From Candidatus Saccharimonadota bacterium (GTDB taxonomy: Bacteria > Patescibacteriota > Saccharimonadia > Saccharimonadales > UBA4665): DNA of 64,000 bases. Shown here one piece after another: positions 1,538-40,200 of this stretch (positions are counted from its first letter, which is position 1; each line of letters starts with the position of its first letter). The translations under genes and the position numbers were made by a program. Location: positions 186,001 to 250,000 of the forward strand of contig JAQBRT010000001.1 of NCBI GenBank assembly GCA_028286345.1. Direction: 5' to 3'. The notes below the pieces were generated by a model, which made no database searches, was not told where the DNA came from, and worked only from the letters and a program-made list of their open reading frames with translations.

Positions 1538-2223
1538 ATGACCGTTACATTATCGGCAGAAAAGGTGTAAACCGTAAAAGACGTAGCCGAACCACTGGCG
1601 TGCTACTCCTGGTATTATTGCTGATTGGCGCCGGGGTGTGGTGGACTTTTACCTATGGCCTCAAAACCAAAACCACACTAACCCAGGCTAAGCCGGTTAT
1701 CACCAAAATTAGTTTTGATAACAATAAGACCAAGCATTTTGACGAACCCAATTTTGGCATTGACCTGCCCGTAGACTATGTTGAGCAGCGCCACGACGCC
1801 AAGCCCTACAATGTCTATTCGTTCCAGGGCACCACCAAAGATTCAACGCTGCGCCTGCTCGATGTGTACGAAGACGCCATCCCCGCCACGCTACCTCTTA
1901 ACCGTGTGGTAGCCGTAGAATCCAATGGCCCAAAGATTACACTGCGCGGCGAGGCCTCAGATACCTGCGAAACCTACACCAAAGACCCGCGGACAACTAA
2001 TAATGAGGCCGTGCACGCCAAGTGGCAGGGATTTGATTTTCTGTGTAACGAGGCCGACCTGCAGCGCAATGCCACTGGAACTGTCTCCAAAGAGGGTAAT
2101 AACCAGTTAACTGTCACTGGTGCTTCGGGCCAGCACACATATTTCTTGGTTTTCACCGACCACAATATTAGCCCCGACCTTAAAGTTTTTTACAGTGCCA
2201 TCCAAAGCCTGCAGGTGAAGTAA
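1534..2223 (+). CDS. Single-pass membrane-anchored extracytoplasmic protein, unknown
   Basis: A 229-residue protein with a basic N-terminus (GRKGVNRKRRSRTT), one transmembrane helix at about residues 22-40 (GVLLLVLLLIGAGVWWTF), and an outside domain of about 185 residues. It overlaps the LexA-like gene by 4 nt (ATGA), so the two are co-transcribed and probably translationally coupled. The outside domain has two cysteines about 28 residues apart (DTCETY and DFLCNE), which could form a disulfide; a DsbA-like protein is encoded 3 kb away. I recognise no family. It is probably lineage-specific. Confidence 0.75.
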   Translation: MNDRYIIGRKGVNRKRRSRTTGVLLLVLLLIGAGVWWTFTYGLKTKTTLTQAKPVITKISFDNNKTKHFDEPNFGIDLPVDYVEQRHDAKPYNVYSFQGTTKDSTLRLLDVYEDAIPATLPLNRVVAVESNGPKITLRGEASDTCETYTKDPRTTNNEAVHAKWQGFDFLCNEADLQRNATGTVSKEGNNQLTVTGASGQHTYFLVFTDHNISPDLKVFYSAIQSLQVK

Positions 2224-2267
2224 ATACTACTATATCTAGCGTCTCGGGCCGGTGCTACACTACTAGA

Positions 2268-2360
2268 ACTTAACAAAACATCGCTGGAATCCTGTGCAAA
2301 TCAGGAACTGTGCCGCAACGGTAAGCTGCAATCTGCAGCAAGTCCGATACAGCTTTAAAA
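2268..2360 (+). promoter_or_regulatory. Cobalamin riboswitch aptamer
   Basis: The segment GGAATCC-TGTGCAAAT-CAGGA (2285-2306), followed by GCCGCAACGGTAA and ending AAGTCCGATAC (2340-2350), reproduces the conserved core of B12 riboswitches. Compare the E. coli btuB leader: GGGAATCC, GTGCGAATC, CGCAGCGGTAA. TCCTG/CAGGA forms the L5 hairpin stem, GCTGCA-ATC-TGCAGC (2324-2338) a further perfect stem, and GCT (2283-2285) can pair with AGC (2351-2353) to close the core. The peripheral P8-P12 helices are missing and P1/P2 looks short, so it is a compact form. A likely -10 (TACACT, about 2256-2261) lies just upstream. Which cobalamin form binds cannot be told from sequence. Confidence 0.82.
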
Positions 2361-2396
2361 TCTCTCGAGCAAGAGTCATTGAACCCGTTTTCAAGG

Positions 2397-2425
2397 CCCT
2401 CACTCGAAAGAATGAGGGTATTTTT
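2397..2425 (+). terminator. Riboswitch expression platform: terminator hairpin carrying the SD
   Basis: CCCTCA (2397-2402) pairs with TGAGGG (2413-2418) around a GAAA-type tip, followed by TATTTTT, and the next gene starts at ATG 2426. The 3' arm of the stem contains GAGGG, the only plausible Shine-Dalgarno for that start (7-nt spacing). The same hairpin could thus stop transcription and hide the ribosome site. It lies about 40 nt after the cobalamin aptamer core. Confidence 0.75.
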
Positions 2426-3739
2426 ATGGCCGTTGCAGCCGCCGAACGACAAACACTACAAGACGAACAGTTTTTACTTGAAACAGTAATGCCAGAAGTA
2501 TTCGTGGTGCCCGAAATGCTGAGCGACCACGAAACGGTTGAAAAAACAGCTCGTTTTATTGGGGCTGTTATGGCAGGTCATACAATCGAGCTAGAAGCTC
2601 CCAGTGTTGAAAAGCCTATCGAGTCTTTGTTTGATGCAGTTCATAAAGCCGCGCATGGAGACAAAGAGGCTGAAAAAGTAGTTGAACTCAATGCCCGGAC
2701 TGACATCGTCGAGCGGGCCATCAAGGTTGGTCATGTCACCGAGCCAGTTCCTCTATTCGTGACTGACCAGGGCAAAGTAGTCCAGCATGGCCAGAGCTAT
2801 GACTCTATCCAGGCAAACAGTTTGCGCTACGCTGCCGGACACGGCATTATGCAAGCCCGTACCGAAGCCGAAGCCCGCAATGCTTTCCGTACCGAGCGTC
2901 TCTTACAAGAAGGATACTTTGATGATGGCTACAGCCTAGTGGTATTTTCGCGGGCCGAAAAACTCCCCGGATTCTTTACAGAAACCATGAGTGTATCCAT
3001 ACAAGTTACGCGCAAGCAAGGTGACGGCCTGGCAGTGCAGACAGCATTTGTTGCGGGGATTGCCCAAGAGGGTGGCGCACAACACGACGAACAGAGCCTT
3101 GTAAAATTAGGCGCTCAGTTCGGGGTAGACTTAAGTGGCCTGACCACCGCTGAATTAATTGATAAGCCGCTGCTTATTAAGGATATGACAGCCCTAGAGC
3201 TAGTTAAGCGTTACGATGATTGCGCTGGCGGTACATTTTTTGGCGAATACAAGCAGCGACAGGATTATGAGCAATATTTGACCCAATGCCAAGAGCGCGA
3301 AAAAAGTTTTGCGCCAAAAGTTGCCGCCATTAAAGCTGAGCTGATTGCCGAAGCCGCAACTATCACAACGCCAATGCAGGCCAGCCGACGGCTTAATAAA
3401 ATTTCTGGGAAGCACTTGGTTGAGCAGGCAATTATCGATACTTCAATCGATGCTCGTGTTTTTGGCCCAGGCGCCATGAACGTTGTGCAGGCACGTTTGC
3501 ATAATGCATCTGGGGACAGCGAAGGGCGCGACCGTCAAACGGCTTTAGCGGTTCGGAATGAACGCTCGTCATCATGTCCTTCGGGCATGGATGGTGCTGA
3601 GAGTGCCGGTGGTGACACGGGTGAGACGGACAGCTATGGCTCATTGTCGTTTACCTGCAAAAAAGGCCATTCTAATACTCGTCCTCACGGTATGTTTATC
3701 GAAAACTGTCAGGTTTGCGGCGACAGCGTCCGTTGCTAG
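2426..3739 (+). CDS. Unknown 437-residue protein with C-terminal zinc-ribbon-like motif, under cobalamin riboswitch
   Basis: A soluble, acidic protein with no signal peptide or transmembrane helix. I recognise no family over its length. The C-terminus ends in FTCKKGH-x16-CQVCGDSVRC: Cys and His, then a CxxC and a final Cys, the look of a zinc ribbon. A low-complexity Ser/Gly linker with two more cysteines (SSSCPSGM) precedes it. ATG 2426 is chosen over 2294, because the upstream start lies inside the riboswitch aptamer and GAGGG is well spaced for 2426. Control by cobalamin suggests a role in B12 uptake or salvage, or in replacing a B12-dependent function. The sequence alone does not say which. 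Confidence 0.8.
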   Translation: MAVAAAERQTLQDEQFLLETVMPEVFVVPEMLSDHETVEKTARFIGAVMAGHTIELEAPSVEKPIESLFDAVHKAAHGDKEAEKVVELNARTDIVERAIKVGHVTEPVPLFVTDQGKVVQHGQSYDSIQANSLRYAAGHGIMQARTEAEARNAFRTERLLQEGYFDDGYSLVVFSRAEKLPGFFTETMSVSIQVTRKQGDGLAVQTAFVAGIAQEGGAQHDEQSLVKLGAQFGVDLSGLTTAELIDKPLLIKDMTALELVKRYDDCAGGTFFGEYKQRQDYEQYLTQCQEREKSFAPKVAAIKAELIAEAATITTPMQASRRLNKISGKHLVEQAIIDTSIDARVFGPGAMNVVQARLHNASGDSEGRDRQTALAVRNERSSSCPSGMDGAESAGGDTGETDSYGSLSFTCKKGHSNTRPHGMFIENCQVCGDSVRC

Positions 3740-3742
3740 AGG

Positions 3743-3801
3743 TATAATTAGTAGATATGAACCAGAATCTTTGCTGCGAGGGTGGACCACTTGAAGTCTA
3801 A
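3743..3801 (+). promoter_or_regulatory. TATAAT box and leaderless 14-codon leader ORF overlapping nadD
   Basis: TATAAT at 3743-3748 is followed 8 nt later by ATG 3757, which opens a 14-residue reading frame (MNQNLCCEGGPLEV) ending in TAA at 3799-3801. This short ORF contains the GAGGGTGG Shine-Dalgarno (3778-3785) for nadD and overlaps the nadD start. Ribosomes loading on the leaderless ATG would open or terminate at the nadD start, so translational coupling is likely. The leader peptide could also just be a by-product. Confidence 0.5.
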
Positions 3802-4393
3802 ACGTATTGGCATCTACGCCGGTACGTTTGATCCGATCCATGCTGGCCATTTGGCATTTGCCTTGCAGGCTATTAGCGCCGCTGAGCTGGACCACATTTA
3901 CTTTTTGCCAGAACGTAAACCGCGCGACAAACAAGGCGTAGAACACTTTGGCCACCGGGTAGCCATGCTAAATCGGGCCGTCAGGCCGCACCCGCAATTT
4001 GAGGTGATCGAGCTGGTCGATATAAGCCTGACTGTTAAGCGGACCCTAACAGAGCTTGCTAAGCAGTTTCCCAAAGATCAGCTGGTGTTTTTGATGGGTT
4101 CTGATGTAGCAGGACACCTGCCGCAATGGCCGCACTCTGACAAACTGCTTAGGACCTGCGAACTGGTCATTGGTATCCGCGACACTCATGAGCTTGAAGT
4201 GGTGCAGCAAGAAATTGAGAGCTGGGCAACTAAGCCTCTGGCCGCAACGGTGTTTACTAGCCATGCCCCAGAGGTAACCTCATCAAAAGTCCGTGATGCG
4301 CTCCGGACCGGCCAACTTACAACTGGTTTGCTGACCAGCGTTGCCCATTACAGCAATAAGCACTGGCTGTACGTGTCCGTTCCCACCTCTTGA
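3791..4393 (+). CDS. nadD: Nicotinate-nucleotide adenylyltransferase
   Basis: A nucleotidyltransferase of the NadD/CoaD superfamily. Near the N-terminus, GTFDPIHAGH carries the HxGH-type ATP-binding signature, and near the C-terminus SSKVRDAL corresponds to the (S/T)SxxIR motif. NadD transfers AMP to nicotinate mononucleotide, the step before NAD synthetase. The 200-residue length is normal. TTG 3791 is preferred as start, since GAGGGTGG sits about 5 nt before it; GTG 3782 lies inside that SD and would add three residues. The stop codon overlaps the -35 box of the next promoter. A close paralogous activity cannot be fully excluded. Confidence 0.85.
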   Translation: MKSKRIGIYAGTFDPIHAGHLAFALQAISAAELDHIYFLPERKPRDKQGVEHFGHRVAMLNRAVRPHPQFEVIELVDISLTVKRTLTELAKQFPKDQLVFLMGSDVAGHLPQWPHSDKLLRTCELVIGIRDTHELEVVQQEIESWATKPLAATVFTSHAPEVTSSKVRDALRTGQLTTGLLTSVAHYSNKHWLYVSVPTS

Positions 4394-25529: not shown

Positions 25530-25605
25530 TGGTGGGGGCGGTTGGACTTGAACCAACGACCAATCAGTTATGAGCCGACTGCTCTAACCACTGAGCTACG
25601 CCCCC
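25530..25605 (-). tRNA. tRNA-Ile(CAU), lysidine type
   Basis: A 76-nt cloverleaf with encoded CCA: 7-bp GGGGGCG/CGCCCCC acceptor, loop CTCATAA (anticodon CAT) and T-arm GTTGG-TTCAAGT-CCAAC. The body (TTAGCTCAGTGGTTAGAGCA-type D-arm, TTGGTCG variable, TTCAAGTCC T-arm) resembles tRNA-Ile2 more than either Met tRNA. Decoding AUA would need lysidine at C34, made by TilS, encoded at 41085. The Ile2 versus Met choice is a judgement from these similarities. Confidence 0.85.
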
Positions 25606-26843: not shown

Positions 26844-26918
26844 CGCGGGATGGAGCAGCGGCAGCTCGCGTGGCTCATAACCACGAGGTCCCAGGTTCGA
26901 GTCCTGGTCCCGCAACCA
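26844..26918 (+). tRNA. Initiator tRNA-fMet(CAU)
   Basis: A 75-nt cloverleaf with encoded CCA. Position 1 is C against A at position 72, the mismatch of bacterial initiators. The loop is CTCATAA. The anticodon stem CGTGG/CCACG has only two of the usual three G-C pairs next to the loop; the third is U29-A41. The D-loop is short (AGCGGCA). A consensus promoter and a strong terminator frame it. Confidence 0.93.
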
Positions 26919-40123: not shown

Positions 40124-40200
40124 TGGTAGCGGCGACAAGACTTGAACTTGTGACCCCAGGCTTATGAGTCCTGTGCTCTAACCAGCTGAGCTACGCCGCC
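40124..40200 (-). tRNA. Elongator tRNA-Met(CAU)
   Basis: A 77-nt cloverleaf with encoded CCA: acceptor GGCGGCG/CGCCGCT (G1-U72), loop CTCATAA, anticodon stem CAGGA/GCCTG and T-arm ACAAG-TTCAAGT-CTTGT. The GTAGCTCAGCTGGTTAGAGCAC and GGGGTCAC stretches resemble bacterial elongator tRNA-Met. TACAAT on the minus strand about 20-25 nt upstream may be its -10. Confidence 0.9.

Follow-up and report, generated by a model that had tools for sequence, protein, structure and literature searches.

A compact cobalamin-type riboswitch and an orphan protein family occur together with B12-dependent NrdJ in Saccharibacteria

A compact cobalamin-type riboswitch and the 437-residue protein encoded behind it are joined across an order of the Saccharibacteria, almost only in genomes whose supply of DNA building blocks rests on NrdJ, the B12-dependent class II ribonucleotide reductase (RNR); this points to an unrecognised response to B12 shortage. 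Saccharibacteria are tiny, host-dependent bacteria that live as epibionts. The pair lies in a 64,000-nucleotide stretch of DNA (the window; G000:C2:186001-250000) from a genome that is 98% complete and, at 0.9 Mb, bears out the description "genome-reduced" given in a sequence-only reading of the window. No earlier report of the riboswitch-protein pair was found in the open-access literature searched, subscription papers being mostly outside its scope.

The compact aptamer and its expression platform

Direct reading of window positions 2256-3739 showed the core motifs GGAATCC, GTGCAAATC, GCCGCAACGGTAA and AAGTCCGATAC, all of which the sequence-only reading had quoted for a B12-riboswitch core. 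That reading had named the Rfam cobalamin models as a check. The search with cmscan matched the AdoCbl model RF01482 to positions 2262-2380 of the plus strand with an E value of 3.6e-6 (251-base search), and the score of 39.6 bits is below the gathering score of that model, 50 bits. A default Rfam scan is therefore silent on the riboswitch; at the gathering threshold, it lists three tRNAs only. All three tRNA genes (25530-25605, 26844-26918 and 40124-40200) have a CAT anticodon, and one of them may be tRNA-Ile2 rather than tRNA-Met. The riboswitch is the sole cobalamin riboswitch detected in its genome. A homologue in one relative (G021) passes the gathering score of RF01482 with 62.3 bits. 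The parts of the RNA and the genes next to it are listed in Table 1.

Table 1. Features of the riboswitch locus, in window coordinates
Feature	Position	Strand	Remarks
Conserved upstream sequence, possible promoter and transcript start	2223..2282	+	ACTATATCTAGCGT...GTGCTACACTACTAGAACTTAACAA; similar in many relatives
P3	GCTG 2283-2286 / CAGC 2350-2353	+	RF01482 match; covariation in 52 sequences
Inner stem	TCCTG 2290-2294 / CAGGA 2302-2306	+	RF01482 match; covariation in 52 sequences
L5	TGCCGC 2311-2316	+	Part of the aptamer core, 2283..2353
CGG/CCG stem	CGG 2319-2321 / CCG 2344-2346	+	RF01482 match; covariation in 52 sequences
Variable stem	GCTGCA 2325-2330 / TGCAGC 2334-2339	+	RF01482 match; covariation in 52 sequences
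P13/L13 hairpin	2362..2375	+	CTCT-CGAGCA-AGAG; covariation, 95% of cells paired
SD-sequestering hairpin	2396..2419	+	Fold -13.5 kcal/mol, z -3.65
Shine-Dalgarno GAGGG	2414..2418	+	3' arm of the hairpin; 7 nt before ATG 2426
Orphan protein ORF, 437 aa	2426..3739	+	ORF, alignments A1-A5, AlphaFold2
nadD-like cytidylyltransferase	3782..4393	+	Pfam PF01467; frequent downstream neighbour in relatives (synteny)

The window RNA shares with RF01482 and its clan, CL00101, the core motifs, P3 and the inner stems, and the L5-L13 kissing loop. It differs from RF01482 in being about 105 nt long, with no outer helices and little of the peripheral extension, in having one bulged base in the kissing loop, and in standing before a gene of no known family. 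Under the kissing-loop model taken from PMC10653944, the possible L13-L5 pairs are U2311-A2371, G2312-C2370, C2313-G2369, C2314-G2367 and G2315-C2366, with A2368 bulged. The sequence just before the aptamer (window 2223-2282) is also conserved in many genomes as TACTATATCTAG...GCTACACTACTAG...TTAACAA and is possibly a promoter.

RF01482 matched in 50 of the 93 genomes of the window's taxonomic family, once in each, and most matches stand a short way ahead of a related protein, 370-550 aa in length. We then scored a structure consisting of P3, the inner stem, the CGG/CCG stem, the variable stem and P13, as drawn from the window sequence, in 52 homologues. Both sides of a pair had changed in 277 cells, compared with 99 +/- 8 after shuffling, and such double changes were seen in 18 of the 22 pairs. 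In the same homologues 90.1% of the cells were paired, compared with 68% after shuffling and 31-45% after sliding; drawing the structure on one aligned sequence favours this percentage and hardly the double-change number. The covariation that the sequence-only reading had made a check of its claim is thus present.

The loops are nearly constant. L13 reads CGNGCA in 63 of 63 leaders whose P13 stem has three or more pairs (60 CGAGCA, 2 CGCGCA and 1 CGTGCA), where the search pattern fixed CGNGC but neither the last A nor the base at N. Five pairs are possible between L13 and the constant TGCCG of L5, with N bulged. Both the L5 and the L13 columns are invariant in alignment A4, the constancy of L5 being partly imposed because TGCCGC was the search key. 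That the RNA is a chance or degenerate element without regulatory function, as a score under the Rfam gathering threshold could suggest, is hardly credible given covariation that indicates selection on the element, constant loops and order-wide conservation. The riboswitch is genuine despite its low score, as seen from the covariation, the near-constant kissing loop and the alternative pairing in relatives. Judged by its sequence, the window RNA is a real cobalamin-type riboswitch that represents a known class in compact form, and we infer that its ligand is cobalamin.

The expression platform had been read as a terminator hairpin whose 3' arm holds the Shine-Dalgarno site. The stable hairpin and the GAGGG within it stood up, and GAGGG or AGGG occupies the same position in most relatives. 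A terminator as the main platform was rejected, since a consensus rule-based scan called none; an interrupted T run, TATTTTT, follows the hairpin. The hairpin is better described as SD-sequestering, the two roles not being exclusive.

The 5' half of the hairpin (CTCGA, 2403-2407) can pair alternatively with the P13/L13 strand (TCGAG, 2365-2369). Across 51 leaders, the complementarity between the P13/L13 strand and the segment up to the Shine-Dalgarno site exceeded that of shuffled sequences (mean z -1.84), with p<=0.05 in 26 of the 51 leaders and p 0.125 for the window alone, and the complementary bases lie mostly in the 5' half of the hairpin. A switch between P13 and the platform is established for other corrinoid riboswitches (PMC10653944, PMC9600662), and in the model of the P. 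megaterium metE riboswitch P13 competes with the expression-platform hairpin, as in the window RNA (PMC10653944). Since the window arrangement is of this known type, the RNA is probably an OFF switch by which cobalamin represses expression, chiefly at translation. With cobalamin bound, L13 would dock on L5 and P13 would remain folded; the CCCTC arm would then be free to pair with GAGGG, and translation would stop. Without cobalamin, P13/L13 would pair with the 5' half of the hairpin, leaving the Shine-Dalgarno site free and allowing the protein to be made.

Genus g21 (L053, L117 and L124) departs from RF01482 in another way: P13/L13 (TTAGC-CGAGCA-GCTAA) falls in the opening codons of the ORF, and the start codon and the Shine-Dalgarno site come after the aptamer core but ahead of P13, so that ligand docking would directly cover the start codon. 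Similar in-ORF hairpins were also seen in L125 and L128.

The 437-residue protein

A GTG start at 2294, which would extend the ORF to 481 aa, was rejected because it lies inside the aptamer. The protein consists of a core domain (about residues 20-380), an invariant cysteine, Cys384 (SSSCP), a flexible linker, and a predicted zinc ribbon, C411/H414...C428/C431; the last of these is the C-terminal Cys/His cluster noticed by the sequence-only reading, to which C384 is added. In alignments A1 (25 sequences, 29-47% identical to the window protein) and A5 (57 diverse sequences), the context of C384 is SSCP, SGCG, GCPG or CGAGSCG. C411, C428 and C431 are invariant in the 57 members of A5, and position 414 is H or C in most of A1. 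The zinc ribbon occurs in several types, which have been exchanged between the cores of the family. AlphaFold2 predicted the structure with pLDDT 83 and pTM 0.75, with a confident core and a low-confidence linker (383-399).

The protein had been described as a member of no known family, and the profile searches and structure prediction returned no match that gives a function. Pfam contained no match for it and NCBIfam none beyond chance; PHROGs and PDB sequences contained no relative beyond weak zinc-ribbon or chance matches; and Foldseek found no fold relative (best E 0.28 in PDB and 0.14 in BFVD). In the libraries searched, the family has no described relative. A phage or viral origin was rejected, as IMG/VR and phage records held no relatives. 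The L37Ae/eL43-type zinc ribbons have the same four-ligand spacing and match weakly by profile (best E 0.0012), but the likeness is limited to about 40 residues and the core of the window protein is unrelated. Like NrdJ, which belongs to a cobalamin-dependent pathway, the window protein has a C-terminal zinc ribbon after a flexible linker; it differs in its 437-aa length and in showing no profile or fold similarity to NrdJ. Homology to the TSCPD/NrdJ tail, suggested by SSSCP and the zinc ribbon, was rejected for want of any profile match. Pfam also found no B12-binding domain PF02310, DUF4430 or alpha/alpha toroid in the window protein. No signal peptide or membrane segment was evident by eye, and the protein alone is thus unlikely to be an importer.

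Iterative profiles placed 98 of the 103 proteins of the set, nearly all of them riboswitch-linked, in one family, and profile-profile comparison supported one family for all clusters but one. The members diverge widely: mean identity to the window protein is 26%, whereas the syntenic neighbours NadD and the CBS protein reach 42% and 38%. The locus is also polymorphic. Genomes of the same family whose NadD proteins are 52-57% identical have riboswitch proteins that are only 20-24% identical, as if divergent types had been swapped at one site. Many members end in -LAA, -VAA or -AA (e.g. L005, L021, L022 and L214), resembling ssrA/ClpXP degrons; -AA ends were found in 17 of 88 family members, compared with 5 of 330 other proteins (p 9e-9).

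Distribution and gene neighbourhoods

Using riboswitch model R1 and protein profile A5, we found the riboswitch in 47 of the 156 genomes of the class and the protein in 41, all of which have the riboswitch; none of the 109 genomes without the riboswitch has the protein. The members from which A5 was made were riboswitch-linked, so the profile could overlook distant members that are not, and the strict filters of the RNA scan can lose weak riboswitch matches. A genome usually carries one riboswitch with an ORF of the window-protein family behind it, so the pairing that the sequence-only reading proposed to look for in related genomes does recur order-wide.

True NrdJ was found in 59 of the 156 genomes, counted as matches over the curated cut-off, with G206 left out (403 bits, 800 aa, class I-like) and G143 added for its split NrdJ. 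The riboswitch is present in 46 of the 59 genomes with NrdJ and in 1 of the 97 without, 13 genomes having NrdJ with neither riboswitch nor protein detected and 96 having neither NrdJ nor riboswitch. The association has a Fisher p of 2e-26, a value that ignores kinship and is inflated by relatedness. The contrast recurs within genus g53, where G169, G204 and G214 have both and G132, G134 and G137 have neither. One genome (G163, locus L211; 98% complete) has the riboswitch and the protein with no NrdJ detected. Within the window's taxonomic family, CobA adenosyltransferase is found in 57 of 59 genomes, NrdJ in 83 of 92 and PF02310 over its cut-off in 0 of 92, which makes NrdJ the likely cobalamin user in these genomes. 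The NrdJ of the window genome is a separate gene (G000:C1:24791-26623). As to BtuCDF-type import, no FecCD (BtuC-type) permease PF01032 was found in the window genome, and weak partial matches, with a best score of 37 bits, were seen in 11 of 39 genomes. Besides NrdJ and CobA, the B12-linked functions searched for were a B12-binding domain, a FecCD-type permease, DUF6580 and DUF4430, and the bacterium may, as the sequence-only reading supposed, be unable to make B12.

Genes resembling cobalamin-uptake genes stand under the same riboswitch in relatives. DUF4430, which is absent from the window genome, follows the riboswitch in G001, G008, G021, G022 and G088. DUF6580 scored over its cut-off in 8 of 59 genomes, all 8 of which also have DUF4430, and stands directly behind DUF4430 in the regions read. 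In G008, G029, G030 and G066, DUF4430, DUF6580 and a large protein with the size and tail type of the window protein stand in one row, the large protein coming after DUF6580. Of the six riboswitch genomes that lack the protein, four (G021, G028, G095 and G111) have uptake-like genes in its place, which in G021 and G028 are DUF4430 and DUF6580. In G156 and G194, the ORFs that follow the riboswitch are unrelated to the family.

Transcobalamin and intrinsic factor combine a prenyltransferase-like alpha/alpha toroid with a DUF4430-type C-terminal domain. In two deep relatives, G111 (L206) and G095 (L209), two proteins that both look secreted are encoded behind the riboswitch, one with DUF4430 and the other with a prenyltransferase-type alpha/alpha toroid. 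These are the two domain types of transcobalamin as two proteins, and the gene pair looks like a split transcobalamin-like binder; the window protein has neither domain.

Two further arrangements were observed. In G037 the gene order is nrdJ, cobA, riboswitch and protein. G024 (75% complete, NrdJ not found) has class I nrdA and nrdB behind a cobalamin riboswitch whose variable stem is longer (L097:114-4002). At 1037-1537 of the window lies the ORF of a predicted protein of 166 aa whose sole Pfam domain is a LexA DNA-binding domain, and short ORFs resembling it occur near the riboswitch in many relatives. The nadD-like gene is probably not part of the function.

Possible roles of the protein

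The reading we favour is that a compact cobalamin OFF riboswitch controls a Saccharibacteria-specific protein that may well help to obtain or handle cobalamin for NrdJ. The protein would be made on cobalamin shortage and would aid acquisition or handling of the cofactor. The uptake-like genes under the same riboswitch type in relatives support this explanation. Against it stand the missing function from any sequence or fold match, the 13 NrdJ genomes without detected riboswitch or protein and the converse case of G163, the unrelated ORFs of G156 and G194, and the nrdAB genes of G024. The sequence-only reading had proposed a part in cobalamin acquisition or use; the link to NrdJ and CobA and the uptake-like operon genes strengthen this proposal, in which an acquisition role of the protein itself would be an extrapolation. 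More tentatively, the proteins could be a new and polymorphic family serving cobalamin acquisition or handling, one that replaced transcobalamin-like uptake genes under an ancestral riboswitch and became the main response to shortage of the NrdJ cofactor.

Another classical use of cobalamin riboswitches is the control of a B12-independent isozyme. In G024, as in the window, one cobalamin-linked target lies behind the riboswitch; that genome encodes nrdA and nrdB there, whereas the window protein is not an RNR. The main rival to acquisition or handling is a cobalamin-sparing dNTP backup, a protein made when AdoCbl is short that replaces or protects NrdJ, for example through deoxynucleotide salvage or NrdJ maintenance. 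The tight link of riboswitch and protein to NrdJ, the nrdAB arrangement of G024, the gene order in G037 and the loose likeness of the invariant cysteine, flexible linker and zinc ribbon to NrdJ tails would all suit such a backup. It nevertheless seems rather unlikely, since neither profiles nor fold comparison link the protein to any RNR, kinase or salvage enzyme, since it shares an operon with uptake-like genes in several relatives, and since four of the six protein-less riboswitch genomes have uptake-like rather than RNR genes at the riboswitch.

We regard it as decidedly unlikely that the protein acts on the host, being made on cobalamin shortage and exported to draw cobalamin or precursors. 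The host-dependent life style, a divergence faster than that of syntenic neighbours (26% vs 42% for NadD) and the exchange of C-terminal zinc ribbons between cores are as in host-facing proteins; however, no export signal was recognised, and relaxed constraint or recombination of old types could also explain the divergence. It is very unlikely that the riboswitch controls a protein only indirectly linked to cobalamin, such as a regulator that uses AdoCbl as a host-state signal. Nucleic acids and proteins are frequent partners of zinc ribbons, and the -AA ends, as a possible ClpXP-type degron, would suit a short-lived regulator, but nearly all Saccharibacteria that lack NrdJ have neither the riboswitch nor the protein, contrary to what a general host-state regulator predicts.

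Under the favoured reading of acquisition or handling, the riboswitch, order-wide and with a single main target, singles out a gene whose part in cobalamin supply can be tested, and the large dark family of proteins gains a tie to a defined metabolite. Default Rfam cut-offs miss the compact cobalamin riboswitches of this group, through which cofactor supply would be connected to DNA synthesis in an epibiont.
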